This document shows, in pieces, positions 1 through 6,487 of a stretch of DNA of 6,487 nucleotides. The DNA lies in contig JAFVMP010000149.1 of the NCBI GenBank assembly GCA_017506845.1, positions 1 to 6,487 on the forward strand. The letters run 5' to 3'. Origin of the DNA: Campylobacter sp. (GTDB taxonomy: Bacteria > Campylobacterota > Campylobacteria > Campylobacterales > Campylobacteraceae). The notes below the pieces were generated by a model. That model saw only the letters and a program-made list of their open reading frames with translations, was not told where the DNA came from and searched no databases. A program made the translations under genes and the position numbers. Position 1 is the stretch's first letter. The number at the start of each line of letters is the position of its first letter.

Positions 1-699
1 AAATAGTCCAGTAACATTTACTCTTTTTAGCTCTTCATCGCTTGGATATGTATAAAAATATAGATCTTTTTCATCAAGCCCATCAACTCCTATCATATCT
101 TCTATGCTAGTTCCTAAAAGACCTCCAAATTTATCAAGCCAATTTTTATCTAAGATATTATTATCTTTTGAAGTAGCTGGACCACCATATTCTATTTGGG
201 GACTCTCTCCCCAAATAATTAATGGAATTCCAAAATTTACAGCGATTCTTGGTACGCAAGTAAATATTCCAAGATGGTTTTGCCATTCATTATCTCCAGT
301 TCTTTTAAAAGCCTCTTTTGCAAGTTTTTTATAGACTATTGGATCTCTTTTGATATGGATTATATCTACACCTAGATTATTTAAATTTTTTAAATTTTTA
401 CGACCTACTTTAGTTGGAATTGTAGGTTCAAAACATACACAAAGTGGGTTAAGTCCCAAATTTAACATAGTTAAAACCTGAAAAGTAGAATCTTTACCCC
501 CACTTACACCAATAACACAATCATATATTGGATGTTTTTTATATTTTTTAATAAGCTCTAAAAACTCAATCTTTCTAGCATTCCAATCAATATCTACATT
601 TTTATTCTCTTGAGATCTACAAGCATCACAGACTCCATCTTGGTCAAAATGTAAATTTGGCTTAGTCTCTGGCATTACGCATTTTGTGCAAAATCTCAT
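1..699 (-). CDS. N-acetyl sugar amidotransferase, PseA/WbuX type (3' end outside window)
   Basis: I translated this from the minus strand: 233 codons from the ATG at 699-697 stay open to the window edge, so the C-terminus is missing. The N-terminus has a zinc-ribbon-like pair of CxxC motifs (C4/C7 in CTKC, C24/C27 in CDAC). A PP-loop ATP-pyrophosphatase motif SGGKDS follows at residues 66-71, and WGESPQ and YGGP lie at about 163-174. This arrangement is typical of the family that converts an N-acetyl group of a nucleotide-activated or glycan sugar to an acetamidino group. Family members usually work with HisH/HisF-like glutaminase and synthase partners, which are not visible here. In Campylobacter the best known member is PseA, which acts on pseudaminic acid of flagellin. 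Legionaminic acid or O-antigen paralogues are equally possible, so I give no symbol. The start is supported by AGGAG at 710-706, six bases upstream. The gene diverges from the sulfur operon. Family is confident; substrate is inferred. Confidence 0.88.
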   Translation of the reverse strand, partial: MRFCTKCVMPETKPNLHFDQDGVCDACRSQENKNVDIDWNARKIEFLELIKKYKKHPIYDCVIGVSGGKDSTFQVLTMLNLGLNPLCVCFEPTIPTKVGRKNLKNLNNLGVDIIHIKRDPIVYKKLAKEAFKRTGDNEWQNHLGIFTCVPRIAVNFGIPLIIWGESPQIEYGGPATSKDNNILDKNWLDKFGGLLGTSIEDMIGVDGLDEKDLYFYTYPSDEELKRVNVTGLF

Positions 700-725
700 A
701 TATTGCTCCTAAATTTCAAACTATT

Positions 726-762
726 TGCCGCAATTATACACAAAAAGAAAAAAAAAAAAAAA
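726..762 (-). promoter_or_regulatory. Promoter of the sugar amidotransferase
   Basis: On the minus strand a perfect -10 TATAAT lies at 738-733, preceded by TGTG. The predicted transcription start is near 726, which gives a leader of roughly 27 bases containing the AGGAG ribosome site. No -35 hexamer is visible. Instead the upstream region is a T-tract (15 consecutive T at 762-748), consistent with the T-rich upstream region that replaces the -35 box in Campylobacter sigma-70 promoters. Confidence 0.7.
748..762. repeat. Homopolymer of 15 A (T on the coding strand of the amidotransferase)
   Basis: Fifteen uninterrupted A bases read on the plus strand, flanked by G at 747 and T at 763. The tract lies 9 bases upstream of the -10 box of the divergent sugar amidotransferase, in the spacer/-35 zone of its promoter. 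Runs of this length are prone to slipped-strand length change and to sequencing error. It could be a length-variable promoter element or simply the T-rich promoter region of this lineage. Confidence 0.85.
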
Positions 763-792
763 TAAAACCAAGCAAAAATAAATATAAACTTA

Positions 793-813
793 ATATATTT
801 AAATTTAATATAT
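793..813. promoter_or_regulatory. 21-bp AT-only imperfect palindrome, possible operator
   Basis: The inverted repeat ATATATT-TAAATTT-AATATAT is symmetrical about position 803 with one mismatched pair (800/806). It lies between the divergent amidotransferase and metY promoters. Palindromes of this kind arise easily in such AT-rich DNA, so an operator role is only a possibility. Confidence 0.25.
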
Positions 814-871
814 AATATTAGTATATATTTAAAATAGCGTTTATATCGATATTTTATAGGTTAAATTTATA

Positions 872-887
872 AAAATATATATATTTT
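872..887. promoter_or_regulatory. 16-bp perfect palindrome upstream of the metY -35, candidate operator
   Basis: AAAATATATATATTTT is a perfect dyad ending 10 bases before the TTGACA at 898. With a predicted start near 933 it is centred at about -53, where an activator, a repressor or an AT-rich UP element could act. The Rrf2 regulator encoded in the operon is the obvious candidate ligand. The element is pure A/T in an AT-rich stretch, so chance remains a serious alternative. Confidence 0.3.
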
Positions 888-897
888 ATTTATTTAC

Positions 898-926
898 TTG
901 ACATTACTTAAATTTTATGCTACAAT
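898..926 (+). promoter_or_regulatory. Sigma-70 promoter of the metY-rrf2-cysK operon
   Basis: TTGACA (898-903) and TACAAT (921-926) are separated by exactly 17 bases, with TGC directly before the -10 (extended -10, TG at 918-919). The predicted start is near 933, leaving a leader of about 25 bases that carries the ribosome site at 947-952. A perfect -35 is uncommon in Campylobacter, where most promoters lack one, so this is probably a strong promoter whose output is limited by a regulator. The leader is too short for a known S-box or other riboswitch. Confidence 0.8.
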
Positions 927-946
927 TCTGCTCATAATTCAATCAA

Positions 947-952
947 AAGGAG
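947..952 (+). promoter_or_regulatory. Ribosome binding site fixing the metY start
   Basis: AAGGAG lies five bases before the ATG at 958. It decides the start: the same frame is open back to a TTG at 898, but that TTG is the first half of the -35 hexamer and has no ribosome site. Confidence 0.85.
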
Positions 953-957
953 ATAAA

Positions 958-2229
958 ATGCAAAAGGAAACTTTAGCAACGCATTATGGATACGATACAA
1001 AAGTTGGCACAGGAGCTATGGCAGTGCCTATCTATCAAAGCACAGCTTATGACTTTGGTAACGCTCAAACTGCTGCAAATAGATTTACATTAAAAGAGCT
1101 TGGGCCTATCTATTCACGCCTTACTAATCCAACCCTTGATGTATTTGAATCTCGCATAGCAGCACTTGAGGGTGGCAAGGCTGGAATTAGCACTTCAAGC
1201 GGTCAAGCTGCGATATTTTTCGCTATTGCAAATTTAGCTCAAGCTGGTGATAATATCATAGTAGCTAAGAAAATTTATGGTGGTGCTACAACACTTCTTA
1301 CTCACACTATTAAAAGATTTGGTATTACAGCTAAAATTTTTGACTCTGAGAGCGTAGAAGATCTAGAAGCATTAATAGATGATAATACAAAAGCAATATT
1401 TTTTGAAACTCTATCAAACCCACAAATTGCAATTGCAAATGTAGAAAAAATCGTTGAAATAGCTGATAAATATGGTGTTGTAACAGTAGCTGATAACACA
1501 GTTGCAACTGCAATTTTATTTAACCCTATTAAAAAAGGTGTAGATGTAGTAGTTCATAGCGCTAGTAAATATATCAGCGGTCAAGGACTTAGCGTAGCTG
1601 GCGCAATAGTAGCTGGCGAACAACTAAATAAAAAACTAGTAGGTAATAAAAGGTATGATCACTTCAACACAGCTGATGAGAGTTATCATGGCCTAGTTTA
1701 TGCTGATTTAGCTGGTGCATTTGATATATATACTCTTAGAATTCGTCTAAGCCTACTAAGAGATATCGGTGCTACACTATCAGCATTTAATGCTTGGCAA
1801 CTAATCCAAGGACTAGAAACTCTAAGTATCAGAGTTAAAGAACATTCTAAAAATGCTCTAAAAGTTGCTGAATTCTTAGAATCACATCCTAAGGTAAAAT
1901 CTATAAATTATCCAGGATTAAAAAGCTCAAAATTAAATGAGTATGTAAAAGCAAATTTCACTGATGGGCTAGCTAGTGGTCTTTTAAGCTTTGAAGTAGC
2001 TGATTTTGAAACTGCTACAAGCGTACTTGATAATGTTAAAATCTTTAGCGTAGTAGTAAATATTGGTGATAGTAAGTCTATAATTACTCATCCAGCTAGC
2101 ACAACTCACCAACAACTCCCAGCTAATGAGTTAGCAGCTGCTGGTATTAGCCCAGGACTGATTCGCCTAAGTATTGGATTAGAAAATGCAGATGATCTAA
2201 TCAATGACTTAAAAGAAGCATTAAAATGA
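958..2229 (+). CDS. metY: O-acetylhomoserine sulfhydrylase (homocysteine synthase), Cys/Met metabolism PLP enzyme
   Basis: This 423-residue cytosolic PLP enzyme of the gamma-synthase/lyase family makes homocysteine from O-acetylhomoserine and sulfide for methionine synthesis. Visible signatures are ETLATHYGY and VPIYQSTAY at the N-terminus, YSRLTNPT (52-59, Tyr and Arg that contact the neighbouring PLP phosphate), SSGQAA (80-85), ADN at 178-180 (Asp for the PLP nitrogen), and HSASKYISGQG with the Schiff-base lysine K204. GDSKSIITHPASTTH (370-384) and the C-terminal LIRLSIGLEN (401-410) follow. The 423-residue length and the internal RYDHFNTADESYHG segment fit MetY rather than the shorter MetB (about 380). 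The start is set by AAGGAG. The stop overlaps the next gene as ATGA. In Wolinella a MetY takes sulfur from a thiocarboxylated carrier protein (HcyS); no carrier is encoded here, so free sulfide is the simplest assumption. Use of O-succinylhomoserine cannot be excluded. Confidence 0.93.
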   Translation: MQKETLATHYGYDTKVGTGAMAVPIYQSTAYDFGNAQTAANRFTLKELGPIYSRLTNPTLDVFESRIAALEGGKAGISTSSGQAAIFFAIANLAQAGDNIIVAKKIYGGATTLLTHTIKRFGITAKIFDSESVEDLEALIDDNTKAIFFETLSNPQIAIANVEKIVEIADKYGVVTVADNTVATAILFNPIKKGVDVVVHSASKYISGQGLSVAGAIVAGEQLNKKLVGNKRYDHFNTADESYHGLVYADLAGAFDIYTLRIRLSLLRDIGATLSAFNAWQLIQGLETLSIRVKEHSKNALKVAEFLESHPKVKSINYPGLKSSKLNEYVKANFTDGLASGLLSFEVADFETATSVLDNVKIFSVVVNIGDSKSIITHPASTTHQQLPANELAAAGISPGLIRLSIGLENADDLINDLKEALK

Positions 2230-2639
2230 GCCTACTTACTACAAAAGGCGTATATGGCTTAATGGCAATTATTGAGATATCAAAAGGAGATAGGACAAAT
2301 CCTGTCTCCCTAAAAGATATCTCACTTGTTACAAATATCTCTAAAAATTATCTTGAACAACTACTAAATAATCTACGAAAAAACGGTATAGTAAGTAGTA
2401 TAAAAGGGATAAAGGGGGGATATTATCTAAGCAAAGCATTAGATGAGATAACTCTTTTTGATATATTTAATAGCTTAGAAAATGAATTTAATTTAGTTAG
2501 CACAGAATTAAGAAATAGTCCATATGGCGCCTTTTTTGACGAGTATGACAAAAAATTAAAAGAGCTATTTACCCATCCACTAAGTAGTATAAAAATTAAT
2601 TCAGAACAAGCTGGTAAATATCTAAACTATGTAATTTAA
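2226..2639 (+). CDS. Rrf2-family transcriptional regulator, cysteine-free, CymR-like
   Basis: This 137-residue winged-helix DNA-binding protein opens with the family pattern LLTTKGVYGLMAIIEIS. It has a helix-turn-helix at about 27-56 (VSLKDIS...ISKNYLEQLLNNLRKNGIV) and a wing containing GIKGGYYLSK (61-70), followed by a linker and helical C-terminal region. It has no cysteine at all, so it cannot carry the Fe-S cluster of IscR or the redox/metal thiols of other family members. It starts inside the metY stop codon (ATGA overlap), so translation is probably coupled, and it is followed nine bases later by cysK. This position and the C-terminal ...KYLNYVI suggest a sulfur regulator that senses O-acetylserine or cysteine status through CysK, as CymR does in Bacillus. 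It probably regulates its own operon. Family is firm; regulon and signal are inference. Confidence 0.88.
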   Translation: MSLLTTKGVYGLMAIIEISKGDRTNPVSLKDISLVTNISKNYLEQLLNNLRKNGIVSSIKGIKGGYYLSKALDEITLFDIFNSLENEFNLVSTELRNSPYGAFFDEYDKKLKELFTHPLSSIKINSEQAGKYLNYVI

Positions 2640-2644
2640 GGAAG
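2638..2644 (+). promoter_or_regulatory. cysK ribosome binding site embedded in the rrf2 stop codon
   Basis: AAGGAAG begins at the second base of the TAA stop of the regulator gene and ends four bases before the cysK ATG. Termination on the upstream gene therefore brings ribosomes to the cysK start, which supports coordinated translation of the two genes. Confidence 0.75.
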
Positions 2645-2648
2645 AAAT

Positions 2649-3557
2649 ATGAAAATTGCAAATAGTGTAAGCGAACTAATTGGCAACACTCCGCTTATAA
2701 AAATAAATAAATTTGGCAATGAGGCTAATATTTTAGCTAAATGCGAATTTCTAAATCCAAGCCACTCTGTAAAAGATAGAATTGCTCTAAATATGATAGA
2801 AAACGCAATTGCAACTAATAAAATAGATACAAACACTACAATTATCGAACCAACAAGTGGCAATACAGGCGTTGGTTTAGCAATGATAGCGGCTGAACGC
2901 GGTTTAAAAATTATTCTTACAATGCCTAGTTCAATGAGTATTGAACGCCAAAAACTTCTTAAAGCATTTGGTGCTCAGTTAGTACTAACCGATCCAAAAT
3001 ATGGTATGCAAGGCGCAGTAGATGAAGCTATAAGACTATCTAAAGAGATTCAAAATAGCTTTATACCAAGCCAATTTGATAATCCAGCCAATCCAGATAT
3101 GCACAAAAGAACAACTGCACTTGAAATTTGGAATGATACTGATGGCAAAGTAGATATATTTGTAGCAGGATTTGGCACTGGTGGAACAGTAAGCGGCGTA
3201 GGTGAGATATTAAAATCTAAAAATCCAAATATTAAAGTTATTGCCGTAGAACCAGCCAAATCACCACTTATAAGCAAAGGTGAAGCAGGCCCGCATATGA
3301 TCCAAGGTATAGGTGCAAACTTTATACCAAAGAATTTAAATAGAGATATTATAGATGAGCTTTTTACTGTATCAAATGAAGATGCAATCGCCACAGCTAA
3401 AGCTTTAGCTCAAAGCGAAGGTTTATTAGTAGGTATCTCAAGTGGAGCAAACATTTACGCAGCTAGTCAAATAGCCAAAGAAAATCCAGGTAAAACAATA
3501 GTTACAATCCTATGCGATACTGGTGAGAGATATCTATCAACTGTACTTTATGAGTAA
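2649..3557 (+). CDS. cysK: Cysteine synthase (O-acetylserine sulfhydrylase A)
   Basis: This 302-residue PLP enzyme of the cytosol makes cysteine from O-acetylserine and sulfide. Key motifs in order are IGNTPL (11-16), NPSHSVKDR with the Schiff-base lysine K42, PTSGNTG (68-74, substrate carboxylate loop), GFGTGGT (174-180, PLP phosphate loop), GISSGA (262-267) and CDTGERYLST near the C-terminus (289-298). HMIQGIGANFIP (216-227) and the 302-residue length point to CysK rather than the thiosulfate-preferring CysM. Partner proteins such as serine acetyltransferase are known to bind CysK by inserting a C-terminal isoleucine into the active site; the upstream regulator also ends in isoleucine. It is the last gene of the operon, co-transcribed with metY and the Rrf2 gene, and is followed by a hairpin. 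No separate promoter was seen. Confidence 0.95.
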   Translation: MKIANSVSELIGNTPLIKINKFGNEANILAKCEFLNPSHSVKDRIALNMIENAIATNKIDTNTTIIEPTSGNTGVGLAMIAAERGLKIILTMPSSMSIERQKLLKAFGAQLVLTDPKYGMQGAVDEAIRLSKEIQNSFIPSQFDNPANPDMHKRTTALEIWNDTDGKVDIFVAGFGTGGTVSGVGEILKSKNPNIKVIAVEPAKSPLISKGEAGPHMIQGIGANFIPKNLNRDIIDELFTVSNEDAIATAKALAQSEGLLVGISSGANIYAASQIAKENPGKTIVTILCDTGERYLSTVLYE

Positions 3558-3581
3558 ATTTGGAGTGGTTTCACTCCAAAT
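3558..3581. terminator. Hairpin between convergent cysK and the unknown gene
   Basis: ATTTGGAGTG (3558-3567) and CACTCCAAAT (3572-3581) form a perfect 10-bp stem with the four-base loop GTTT. It begins directly after the cysK stop and includes the first base of the opposing gene's stop codon, so it can serve both strands. Neither strand has a proper T-run after the stem, so termination may be partial. Confidence 0.6.
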
Positions 3582-3994
3582 CATATAACTGCAAATAACT
3601 TTTTAAGACTACTATTTTCTAATTTTTCACTATCGTAGGCTGAATTTAATTTTTGTAAATCTTTTTTATACCTATCTAGTGTCTCTTCGATACTAGCAAG
3701 TGCTGCTGCTTTATCCGATGGATTCATATTTGAAACATCTAATGCCTTTAAAAGCTCAGCTCTTTTAATCTCTAATTGCTTTTCAATTTTCTCATTATTC
3801 ATAATATTTACAGTATTCATTATACCGTATTTATTTATATTATCTCTAAAAGTATCAACGCTATCTACACTACTACTTTTGCTATCACTTTGTAGCATTT
3901 GAGATAATATATCTTTAAATTCAGCATCACTTTCATAATGCTTTGAAGTGCCATATACTTCATTTTGATATTTTGATATATTATTTATTTGCAT
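3581..3994 (-). CDS. Unrecognised 137-residue helical protein, possibly sigma-54 dependent
   Basis: I do not recognise this protein. It is small, hydrophilic and without cysteine or tryptophan. It begins MQINNISKYQNEVYG, has a serine-rich stretch at 36-45 (QSDSKSSSVD) and two probable amphipathic helices at about 66-86 and 93-117 that could form a helical hairpin or coiled coil. There is no signal peptide or membrane segment. AAGGAT at 4005-4000 supports the ATG at 3994. Directly upstream is a GG-N10-GC element that fits a sigma-54 promoter, the class used for hook, rod and other mid-stage flagellar genes in Campylobacter. A flagella-associated or flagellum-exported small protein is therefore a reasonable guess, but nothing in the protein proves it. 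It converges on cysK and lies downstream of the ankyrin gene, so read-through from katA-ank is also possible. Coding is likely, given good start signals and a clean amphipathic helical pattern. Confidence 0.75.
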   Translation of the reverse strand: MQINNISKYQNEVYGTSKHYESDAEFKDILSQMLQSDSKSSSVDSVDTFRDNINKYGIMNTVNIMNNEKIEKQLEIKRAELLKALDVSNMNPSDKAAALASIEETLDRYKKDLQKLNSAYDSEKLENSSLKKLFAVI

Positions 3995-4026
3995 ATTTTA
4001 TCCTTAATAATTATTAGATAAAATAA

Positions 4027-4040
4027 GCAATTTTTATTCC
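4027..4040 (-). promoter_or_regulatory. Putative sigma-54 (RpoN) promoter
   Basis: Read on the minus strand, AAGGAATAAAAATTGCTT contains GG (4040-4039), ten bases, then GC (4028-4027): the invariant -24/-12 spacing. The -12 half TTGCTT is a perfect match to the Campylobacter form, and the -24 half GGAA matches in part. The predicted start is near 4015, leaving a leader of about 20 bases with AAGGAT before the ATG at 3994. The element fills the 46-base gap between the ankyrin stop and this gene. No sigma-28 motif is visible in the same gap. Confidence 0.55.
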
Positions 4041-4517
4041 TTAGGCAGCACTATTTTTACTAAATATTCCAAGTATTTTAGCACTTATTATTTTCAATAT
4101 ACCTCTTTTTTTGCTTTTACTTAATAGATACTTAGCAATTTCTGCCCTATTAAACATAATAGCAAAACTATATGGAGTAAGCCCCATTCCATTATTTGCA
4201 TCGATATCAGCTCCTGCTTCTACAAGTAGCTTAACTATTTCAAAATTGCCTTTAAAGCATACTCCAGCTAACGGGGTTTGACCACGATCGTTTCTCTCAT
4301 CAACATTTGCACCACGCTCTAAAAGCATCTTAGTTGTCTCATATGAGCCATTATAACTAGCTAGCATTAACAAACTATCGCCTTTATGATTTTTAAGATT
4401 TACATTTAATCCTGCATTTAGCATTAACTCTAACTGAGCAAATTCATTATTTCTAGCAAAATTAAACGCATATCCGCACAGCTCTTCATATCGTTTTTCT
4501 TCTTCTTGTGTTATCAT
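4041..4517 (-). CDS. Ankyrin-repeat protein, Cj1386-like heme-trafficking partner of catalase
   Basis: This 158-residue protein has about three full ankyrin repeats and a degenerate first one: about 14-44, 45-77 (GDSLLMLASYNGSYETTKML), 78-110 (GQTPLAGVCFKGNFEIVKLL) and 111-135 (GLTPYSFAIMFNRAEIAKYL). A lysine-rich, hydrophobic tail (134-155, SKSKKRG...ILGIF) follows. There is no signal peptide. It lies directly downstream of katA on the same strand. In C. jejuni the equivalent neighbour, Cj1386, is an atypical hemin-binding protein that delivers heme to KatA, and a tyrosine is its reported ligand. Y55 or Y59 in the second repeat are candidates here, by position only. AAGGA before the ATG supports the start. 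A strong hairpin separates it from katA, so expression may depend on read-through or on a weak promoter of its own. Fold is sure; role is inferred from context. Confidence 0.87.
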   Translation of the reverse strand: MITQEEEKRYEELCGYAFNFARNNEFAQLELMLNAGLNVNLKNHKGDSLLMLASYNGSYETTKMLLERGANVDERNDRGQTPLAGVCFKGNFEIVKLLVEAGADIDANNGMGLTPYSFAIMFNRAEIAKYLLSKSKKRGILKIISAKILGIFSKNSAA

Positions 4518-4530
4518 TTTAATTCCTTAT

Positions 4531-4547
4531 TGCAAATTTAAATTGCA
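4531..4547. promoter_or_regulatory. 17-bp near-perfect palindrome before the ankyrin gene
   Basis: TGCAAATTTAAATTGCA is symmetrical about 4539 with one mismatched pair (4536/4542). It lies 14 bases upstream of the ankyrin start, just before the AAGGA ribosome site. It could be an operator for an ankyrin-gene promoter, or a small mRNA hairpin near the ribosome site. I cannot assign a regulator. Confidence 0.35.
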
Positions 4548-4570
4548 TTTTTATGATACTTAAATTTACA

Positions 4571-4598
4571 ATAAGCCCCCAAAAATTGGGGAGCTTAT
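4571..4598 (-). terminator. Hairpin terminator or attenuator after katA
   Basis: On the minus strand the stem pairs ATAAGC-(T)-CCCCAA with TTGGGG-GCTTAT: twelve base pairs with one bulged base and a loop of three. It begins one base beyond the katA stop and is GC-rich for this genome. What follows is TTGTAAATTT rather than a clean T-run, so some transcription may continue into the ankyrin gene, giving more katA than ankyrin mRNA. Confidence 0.75.
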
Positions 4599-4599
4599 A

Positions 4600-6033
4600 C
4601 TACTTAGCTAGTGCAGCTTTTACGCCATCAGCGTAAGCTGGGTCAATTAATCTAAAATGATTTAACGCTTTTTGGATTATATCATCGCTTACACCATTCA
4701 TACTTTGTGCTATATTAGAATGAAGTCTAGCTTTCTCATCACTTGGCAATATTGCATATAATGACCTAGCATCTGTATAATAATCAGCATAGTATTCTCT
4801 ATGATTAAATCTTTGCGCTATCTCGCCTATAGCCAAATCTGGTTCAGCGAACTTAGCATTTTCAACTGGCCCACCATTGCTATTTGGCTCATAATATGCT
4901 GATTTTTCTTGTGCATAGCTACCATTATTCATAGCTCCGCCTACATAGTAGTTATTGACTTCAACTATTGGCTTATTAACTTCAAGTTGTTGATAATGCA
5001 CACCAACTCTATATCTTTGAGCATCTGGATAGCTAAAAATTCTAGCTTGAAGCATTCTATCTGGGCTATAACCAATACCTGGAACTATATTACTTGGACT
5101 AAATGCTACTTGTTCTACCTCGTTAAAATAGTTTTTAGGATTTTGATTAAGAGTTAAGACACCTACATTTATAAGTGGATATTTAGAGTGAGGCCAGATT
5201 TTAGTTAGGTCAAATGGATTAAACTCGCACTCATTAGCCTCTTCTTGACTCATTATTTGAATTTTAAAATCCCACTGAGGGAACTCACCTCTATCAATTG
5301 CCTCATATAGATCTCTTTGATGGCTCTCTCTATCTACGGCTATGATCTTAGCTGCTTCTTCATTGGTTAGATTTTTAATGCCTTGGCGAGTTTTAAAGTG
5401 GAATTTAACCCAAAATCTCTCACCATTTTGATTTATTAAGCTATATGTATGACTACCAAAACCATGCATATGACGATAACTTGCTGGAATTCCCCTATCG
5501 CTCATTAAGATCATAACTTGATGCATTGTCTCAGGGTTTAGCGTCCAAAAATCCCACGCAGCGTTTGCTGATCTTAAGTGTGTTCTTGGGTCTCTTTTTT
5601 GCGAGTGGATAAAATCTGGGAATTTCATACCATCTTTGATAAAAAATGTCGGTGTATTATTACCTACTAAGTCCCAATTGCCCTCTTTAGTATAAAATTT
5701 AATTGCAAATCCTCTAACATCTCTTTCTGCATCTGCTGCACCAGCCTCACCAGCAACTGTGCTAAAGCGTAAAAATAATTTAGTTTTTTCACCTTTTTGA
5801 AGTACACTTGCTTTAGTATATCTACTAATATCTTCAGTAATCTCTAAAACACCATATGCACCACTACCCTTAGCATGAACTGTTCTTTCTGGAATTCTCT
5901 CTCTATTTTGAAATGCAAGTTTTTCAATCAATTGATAATCTTGAAGTAATACTGGGCCGGTGGCACCTGCTGTGATACTAAACTGATTTGAGCTAATTGG
6001 ATTTCCACTAGCTGTATTTAATTGTTTTGCCAT
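4600..6033 (-). CDS. katA: Monofunctional heme catalase
   Basis: This 477-residue small-subunit (clade 3 type) catalase splits hydrogen peroxide into water and oxygen, close to the length of C. jejuni KatA. Catalytic His53 lies in [12 protein letters not shown] and catalytic Asn125 in [14 protein letters not shown]. The proximal heme ligand Tyr335 with Arg331 lies in the family signature [12 protein letters not shown] (331-342). The heme-pocket [10 protein letters not shown] (89-98) and DPRTHL are intact, as is the C-terminal helical part. There is no signal peptide, so it is probably cytosolic; short small-subunit catalases lack the extra flavodoxin-like domain. The start has AAAAGGAA six bases upstream. 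A TATAAT promoter and a 39-bp palindrome lie upstream; PerR and Fur control of katA is known in C. jejuni. A hairpin and the heme-delivery ankyrin gene follow. All catalytic residues are present. Confidence 0.97.
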
Positions 6034-6069
6034 ATGATTTCCTTTTTGATAAATTTAATATGTAGCAAA

Positions 6070-6075
6070 ATTATA
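6070..6075 (-). promoter_or_regulatory. katA -10 promoter element
   Basis: TATAAT reads at 6075-6070 on the minus strand, giving a predicted start near 6063 and a leader of about 30 bases with the AAAAGGAA ribosome site at 6046-6039. No -35 hexamer is visible. The position where it would lie is covered by the long palindrome at 6090-6128. Confidence 0.7.
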
Positions 6076-6089
6076 TGGCTTTTTTTAAA

Positions 6090-6128
6090 ATATTTTGTAA
6101 ATAATAAAAATTATTATTTACAAAATAT
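6090..6128. promoter_or_regulatory. 39-bp palindrome, candidate PerR/Fur-type operator of katA
   Basis: Two perfect 18-base arms, ATATTTTGTAAATAATAA (6090-6107) and its exact complement (6111-6128), flank the spacer AAA. Relative to the predicted katA start the element spans about -27 to -65, where a bound protein would block polymerase. Its centre (6102-6116, TAATAAA-A-ATTATTA) matches 11 of 14 arm positions of the Bacillus PerR box TTATAAT-N-ATTATAA. The symmetry extends well beyond one such box. An alternative is an AU-rich hairpin downstream of cmoA; the lack of any G/C core makes that less likely. Confidence 0.6.
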
Positions 6129-6224
6129 AAAACTATTTTTTGCTGGGGATATTTTATAAATATTGGTTTTAGTGCAATCTTAGTATGATTAAAAATCAAA
6201 TATTAACCCATTTTAATTAATAGT

Positions 6225-6487
6225 TTATTTAAAAGCTATAAAAGAAGCAAAATTTGCCCATTTAAACAAGGTTTCTACATTACAAAATCCAGCATTTTTA
6301 CATAGCTCCTTATTCTCATTTTCACTATATGGTATCAAAACATTTTCTAATGCTTGACGCTTTTGAGCTATCTCAAATTTAGAGTAACCTTGAGCTTCTT
6401 TATACTCTTGATATATATTAATCATCTCTAAATCTAGCTTTTTATCATCATATACTAGCTTTTCGCTAAATACAAATAAACCATCAT
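6225..6487 (-). CDS. cmoA: Carboxy-S-adenosyl-L-methionine synthase, C-terminal part (5' end outside window)
   Basis: The frame is open to the window edge, so only the last 86 residues are visible; an ATG at 6425 is internal. They read from [10 protein letters not shown] (end of the methyltransferase-like fold, resembling the LVLSEK strand of E. coli CmoA) through [19 protein letters not shown] and [10 protein letters not shown] to the terminal [22 protein letters not shown]. The GYS-x-EI-x-QKR-x-x-LENV block is the family hallmark. CmoA makes carboxy-SAM from SAM and prephenate; CmoB then uses it to modify wobble uridine-34 of tRNAs to 5-carboxymethoxyuridine. The gene is transcribed toward katA, 191 bases away, with no clear terminator and with a separate katA promoter between. 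Confidence 0.9.

Follow-up and report, generated by a model that had tools for sequence, protein, structure and literature searches.

Introduction

The closest described system in which an Rrf2-family transcription regulator is paired with the cysteine synthase CysK is CymR-CysK of Bacillus subtilis and Listeria, reportedly described by Tanous and colleagues in 2008. Excerpts of three papers refer to it (PMC12895370, PMC4961446, PMC9239247). They state that CysK slows the release of CymR from DNA about 7-fold (PMC4961446), that the cystine transporter operon of Listeria is repressed by both CymR and CysK (PMC9239247), and that B. subtilis reportedly lacks a classical cysteine synthase complex (PMC12895370). 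Here, we analyzed a stretch of 6,487 nucleotides from Campylobacter sp. (contig JAFVMP010000149.1 of assembly GCA_017506845.1, positions 1 to 6,487), called the window throughout, in which the gene of an Rrf2-family regulator ending in isoleucine (Ile) stands between metY and cysK. By analogy with CymR, we propose that this regulator is probably a CymR-like protein whose conserved Tyr-x-Ile tail docks in the active site of CysK, with CysK likely serving as a sulfur-sensing co-repressor. Among the papers listed by the literature searches, none describes such a sulfur sensor in Campylobacterota, as judged by titles and the openings of abstracts.

Results

The C-terminal isoleucine is conserved across Campylobacterota

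The terminal Ile is present in 150 of 151 distinct Campylobacterota members of the regulator family. This pooled set consists of closed frames from loci with at least 100 bits, made distinct on their last 125 residues, with database proteins left out; L002 and L004 were dropped as duplicates of the window, L001 and L028 represent a single gene, and L367 stands outside the 151. The relatives were gathered by routes that are independent of the last residue and give overlapping sets. In a family search covering 153 genomes, the 30 loci read, from 30 genomes, all end in Ile, and 15 of 15 loci read in addition do so too. Genome contigs were also scanned with two N-terminal patterns as seeds; this retained 80 loci, with identities as low as 32%, and all 80 have the Ile end. 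Among the matches listed for a search in 397 Campylobacterota genomes, 60 regions were hand-picked across families; L269, which has no rrf2, was excluded, and 58 of the remaining 59 regions across the phylum, among the matches listed, carry the Ile end. In a search of a protein database the count was 87 of 92 matches, and the five others (P0026, P0030, P0035, P0045 and P0087) look truncated or frame-shifted. The bit-score distribution is empty between 60 and 100, and below this gap fall 15 distinct other Rrf2 proteins, all from the window's genus, of which 0 of 15 have a terminal Ile.

We then compared single positions of the tail among 46 representatives less than 60% identical. Ile occupies position -1 in 45 of them, and Tyr or Phe occupies position -3, likewise in 45. 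Entropy is 0.15 bits at position -1 and 3.43 bits at position -2, where many residues occur. A position this variable beside the fixed -1 and -3 indicates that relatedness fails to explain the terminal Ile. Across members the residue is encoded by ATA (79), ATT (58) and ATC (13) and followed by all three stop codons; thus, selection acts on the amino acid. A family alignment of 43 members has L133 and I137 invariant in all rows. The AlphaFold2 model of the monomer, computed from this alignment, has a mean predicted local distance difference test score (pLDDT) of 86.7, and residues 133-137 fall below 50, the sole stretch of at least three residues to do so. According to this model the tail is probably free, and invariance in an end that is probably unfolded points to a binding partner.

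Only one lineage without the Ile end was seen. It comprises L228 and L367 (genomes G270 and G411, two species of one genus), in which the regulator ends in TFGL. Apart from this genus, the variable or extended C-terminus among orthologues that the preliminary description had named as speaking against its proposal was not seen. TFGL is possibly an altered docking motif. A compensating change in the CysK pocket was considered for this genus, and none was present at the ten positions examined in two CysK proteins.

The tail matches known CysK ligands

Excerpts from published work on CysK complexes attribute about 80% of the binding energy to the terminal Ile of the ligand (PMC12895370). Its carboxylate is held by two Thr of a loop, and its side chain packs on the pyridoxal 5'-phosphate (PLP) cofactor and a Phe (PMC12895370, PMC3805590). 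In the excerpted peptide data, MNYDI, with Tyr at -3, binds Salmonella CysK at 0.22 uM vs 11.8 uM for the native CysE tail, the Tyr entering an aromatic cluster with two Phe; with Haemophilus influenzae CysK, MNYDI and MNWNI (Trp at -3) alike bring a gain of just about 1.75-fold (PMC9547175). The family tails share the aromatic residue at -3 and the Ile at -1 with these best CysK-binding peptides. CysK is most likely the partner of the tail.

The window CysK is of the O-acetylserine sulfhydrylase A (OASS-A) type, with a TIGR01139 score of 451.7 bits against a cut-off of 350.95, and by motif it retains the docking residues T69, S70, T73, Q142, F143, Q219, G222 and F225. Two of these, Q219 and G222, appear to match the positions that, according to the part of PMC3805590 consulted, separate OASS-A from OASS-B. 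In an alignment of 49 CysK proteins, T69, S70, T73, Q142, F143, Q219 and G222 are invariant and F225 is present in 48. All three docking motifs are exact in 117 of 131 distinct CysK-like frames. The pocket residues are general to CysK and alone do not single out this regulator as the partner.

The tail follows the regulator family, not the neighbouring gene

To describe the neighbourhood, cysK was counted as directly downstream when a CysK frame starts -200 to +400 bases from the regulator's end. This arrangement occurs in 112 of the 151 distinct members, including the one with the Leu end. All 39 others keep the terminal Ile; four of these have cysK elsewhere in the fetched flank, 17 have another tested sulfur gene and 18 have no tested gene, and a few sit at contig ends, e.g. 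L093. Neighbours in such loci include cysH, cysD, DUF2061, DUF4395 and sirohaem synthase. The expectation of the preliminary description that conservation of the Ile would be limited to loci with an adjacent cysK fails in these 39 members, and a model based on adjacency alone was discarded for the same reason. As the Ile is kept away from cysK, the tail follows the regulator family rather than its neighbour.

A cysKM-family gene above the cut-off was present in 15 of the 15 genomes checked, 13 with a non-adjacent and two with an adjacent arrangement. Within the window's genus the regulator occurs in 14 of 16 genomes, all 14 of which have a cysKM gene above the cut-off; of the two genomes without the regulator, one has such a gene and the other does not. 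In the window's own genome (84% complete), cysK is the only gene found above the cysKM cut-off.

A second family branch occurs in Sulfurimonas/Sulfuricurvum-type genomes (L240, L243, L245, L247, L248, L268, L142-L144 and L246); its tails include QPHYYEI, and its fetched flanks contain no cysK. Immediately upstream of the L142 regulator is a DUF4395 gene, and sirohaem synthase neighbours L143, the same locus as L246. DUF4395 genes also recur beside the regulator in L140, L234-L236, L275, L232, L237 and L272, and five are also near cysH/cysD, which suggests that DUF4395 has a role in sulfur assimilation.

The regulator resembles CymR in fold and does not group with it in a tree

Membership of the Rrf2 superfamily is clear from PF02082 (88.1 bits, cut-off 30) and TIGR00738 (92.6 bits, cut-off 73.3). 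Among solved folds, B. subtilis CymR (2y75) is the nearest, closely followed by IscR. The CymR equivalog model NF047409 is matched by all 43 members of the family alignment (best E 1.4e-30), and the window protein scores 82.4 bits against its cut-off of 195. For IscR the score is 82.8 bits against a cut-off of 207.55, and the window protein has zero Cys vs three cluster ligands in IscR; 86 of the 151 distinct members lack Cys in their last 125 residues. The DNA-binding domain is retained, with G61, G64, G65 and Y66 invariant in the 43-member alignment.

Rrf2 proteins of other phyla came from a plasmid search with 6 records, five of which were examined, and the label 'CymR-like' for them is our own. 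Those ending in Ile are the Listeria and Paenibacillus CymR-like proteins and an Ilyobacter Rrf2 protein beside metH; other ends are found in Klebsiella IscR and in a protein of Acetoanaerobium whose gene adjoins an iscS-like frame. In the tree, one clade of 7 (support 92/99, under the starred level) unites the CymR-like and IscR sequences with those of T. potens and Ilyobacter, and the Campylobacterota rows fall outside it. In this tree 25 of 56 inner branches are open, with many forks below 80% support, and the tail may or may not share one origin with that of CymR. Neither the model score nor the tree placement supports orthology with CymR. The window regulator thus resembles CymR in fold, scores far below the CymR cut-off and stands apart from CymR in this tree. 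Among the 120 matches listed of 2209 in a further protein search, one carries an automated label of the Joint Genome Institute, 'Rrf2 family cysteine metabolism transcriptional repressor', which hints at the role proposed here.

CysE almost always lacks an isoleucine tail in Campylobacterota

We also inspected CysE, the classical partner of CysK. After exclusion of L160 and L161, which are not CysE above the cut-off, 84 of 85 loci encode a CysE without the Ile tail. An inverse distribution, in which CysE keeps its Ile where the regulator is missing, was looked for and not found, the Ile being present in 0 of 20 regulator-positive and 1 of 20 regulator-negative loci picked among the matches listed. 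Since CysE lacks the tail, competition between the regulator and CysE for CysK is not expected. The only Ile-ended CysE among the 85, L344 (genome G051) of the regulator-negative group, ends in YQPEYSI and is a candidate for a classical cysteine synthase complex.

Layout of the locus

In the window, metY, rrf2 and cysK form an operon-like row on one strand, with a promoter-like TTGACA-17-TACAAT in front (Table 1). The rrf2 ATG overlaps the metY stop codon in the sequence ATGA at 2226-2229. The preliminary description had the regulator ending in YLNYVI, its gene directly before cysK and the cysK ribosome site inside the rrf2 stop codon, and all three are exact.

Table 1. Features of the metY-rrf2-cysK locus, in window coordinates
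Feature	Position	Strand	Basis
Sigma-70-type promoter of the metY-rrf2-cysK operon: TTGACA 898-903, 17-base spacer, TACAAT 921-926	898..926	+	sequence
metY ribosome site AAGGAG	947..952	+	sequence
metY, O-acetylhomoserine/O-acetylserine sulfhydrylase	958..2229	+	TIGR01326 536.7 bits, cut-off 495.1
rrf2, Rrf2-family regulator, 137 amino acids, no cysteine, ends AGKYLNYVI	2226..2639	+	PF02082 88.1 bits
C-terminal tail YLNYVI; last residue Ile137 2634-2636, aromatic Tyr135 2628-2630	2619..2636	+	conservation, low pLDDT
cysK ribosome site TAAGGA (good match), beginning in the rrf2 stop codon	2637..2642	+	sequence
cysK, cysteine synthase A	2649..3557	+	TIGR01139 451.7 bits, cut-off 350.95; Pfam PALP
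CysK T69-S70-G-N-T73-G, loop that in known complexes binds the carboxylate group of the docked terminal Ile	2853..2870	+	motif match; role from part of PMC3805590
CysK Gln142-Phe143, docking pocket	3072..3077	+	motif match; role from parts of PMC3805590/PMC12895370
CysK Q219-GIG-AN-F225, OASS-A-type pocket; Gln and Gly kept, Phe likely of the aromatic cluster	3303..3323	+	motif match; role from parts of PMC9547175, PMC3805590

A search that demanded a TTGAC-like and a TATAAT-like box, in the regions recovered by the start-finder, returned such a promoter layout in 55 of 55 metY upstream regions (42 distinct). The -35 box is complete and conserved over the 42 distinct regions, mostly as ACTTGACATT. 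Immediately upstream of the metY -35 box, L051 (same as L085) carries TATACTTATTTGATAAGTATA, a perfect palindrome.

The rest of the window contains genes on the minus strand. At 1-699 the window edge truncates a WbuX-type N-acetyl sugar amidotransferase (TIGR03573), which is probably involved in surface sugar synthesis. A 137-amino-acid protein at 3581-3994 has no Pfam or NCBIfam match at E 0.001. At 4041-6033, an ankyrin-repeat protein lies directly downstream of a catalase gene, and the two are likely co-transcribed.

Discussion

The idea of the preliminary description that the regulator and CysK form a sulfur sensor retains its core, supported by the conserved Ile, the tail predicted to be free, the CysE proteins without a tail and the GYMFYI ends of S. 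aureus CymR and a Listeria homologue; the dependence on cysK adjacency does not stand. In the mechanism that we propose, O-acetylserine would be low when sulfide is plentiful, and the tail would stay in CysK. The CysK-regulator complex would then repress the metY promoter and other promoters of sulfur assimilation. Under sulfide shortage, O-acetylserine would accumulate and occupy the CysK active site, and the tail would be released. Release would turn the operon on and yield MetY, more regulator and more CysK. The regulator would thereby have taken over the docking site on CysK that CysE occupies in enterobacteria and plants.

Other explanations of the conserved Ile have to be weighed against this mechanism. 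The tail might bind another partner, such as another PLP enzyme, an adaptor or a protease, or the regulator's own dimer, with cysK merely a target gene. The Ile in all 39 members without cysK directly downstream fits such a partner, as do the members by sirohaem synthase or DUF4395 genes. We consider it unlikely, however, because the tail pattern at -1 and -3 matches the best CysK-binding peptides and all 13 checked genomes with a non-adjacent arrangement carry a cysKM-family gene elsewhere; packing within the dimer is disfavoured by the very low confidence of the tail in the AlphaFold2 model, which is of the monomer only. A constraint on the nucleotides rather than the protein, in which the Ile has no docking function and is kept by the cysK ribosome site or by close relatedness, could be suspected from the way that this site begins in the rrf2 stop codon of the window. 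It is highly improbable in view of the free position -2, and codon diversity (three Ile and three stop codons) together with the members that have no cysK behind them rules out the ribosome site as the cause.

Docking in CysK could also serve mainly to control the enzyme, the regulator inhibiting or stabilising CysK as CysE does, with transcriptional sensing secondary or absent. A docked tail would indeed block the active site, as the published excerpts describe for CysE and CdiA-CT, and rrf2 and cysK are encoded together with overlapping signals in a phylum whose CysE lacks the tail. DNA-binding proteins are, on general knowledge, usually far scarcer than biosynthetic enzymes, however, and the Rrf2 DNA-binding domain is kept with its four invariant residues. 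For these reasons control of the enzyme as the main function appears quite unlikely.

Several observations weigh against a regulator tail that docks in CysK to sense sulfur. The TFGL genus keeps cysK adjacent, with its docking residues unchanged. At least three Cys are present in the last 125 residues of 7 of the 151 members, in which a cluster is possible. The absence of Ile from CysE is phylum-wide and not tied to the presence of the regulator, and in 18 distinct members the fetched flank contains no sulfur gene of those tested. No operator could be resolved near the metY promoter, where the best dyad (centre 12 bases upstream of the -35 box, score 0.46 vs a shuffle maximum of 0.43) is barely above rivals, other centres reaching 0.452, and no common palindrome emerged. 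Outside the phylum, 4cic, titled T. potens IscR, ends in Ile. In an alignment by eye, three Ser of 4cic match cysteines of the Acetoanaerobium protein, and a cluster regulator may therefore carry an Ile tail as well. In Paenibacillus, an Ile-ended Rrf2 protein is encoded beside a cysteine desulfurase gene. Taken together, 4cic and the Paenibacillus protein indicate that the Ile tail is not exclusive to cysK-linked regulators.

A wider picture, to which we give even chances, would be that throughout the phylum the CysK docking site passed from CysE to an Rrf2 lineage distinct from CymR, leaving no classical cysteine synthase complex. The Tyr-x-Ile tail, of naturally high affinity, would then let the occupancy of CysK by O-acetylserine govern sulfate assimilation, metY and cysK, and each lineage version of the tail (TFGL, YEI, MYFI) would be tuned to its own regulon. 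If real, the proposed sensor would give Campylobacterota, a large phylum with Campylobacter, Arcobacter, Sulfurospirillum and Sulfurimonas among its members, a sulfur regulator. It would also fit CysE proteins without a docking tail and make CysK-based regulation, with the enzyme as sensor, far wider than Bacillota.

Among known systems, IscR shares the Rrf2 fold and gives close fold matches; unlike IscR, the window regulator has no Cys, and Klebsiella IscR ends in KLRA. The proposed interaction resembles the CysE-CysK complex in that a C-terminal Ile is predicted to enter the CysK active site and competition by O-acetylserine is expected, and it differs in that the partner is a transcription regulator. 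Docking of proteins other than CysE on a CysK homologue through a terminal Ile is described for CdiA-CT/CysK and EGL-9/CYSL-1 in the published excerpts; CdiA-CT and EGL-9 are unrelated to the regulator and are precedents only. The closest parallel is CymR, likewise an Rrf2 regulator and the nearest fold, with a terminal Ile after an aromatic residue and with CysK as its partner, as predicted here. The end GYMFYI is found in the Staphylococcus aureus CymR chain 3t8r, the Listeria homologue 3lwf and the Listeria locus L346. In the Listeria locus, the cysK reference had no match among the frames up to 3 kb from the CymR-like gene. Unlike the GYMFYI of CymR, the tail of the window's relatives is [Y/F]LN[Y/F]xI-like, and, also unlike CymR, the Campylobacterota regulator and cysK usually stand in one row with metY, often with cysH/cysD.

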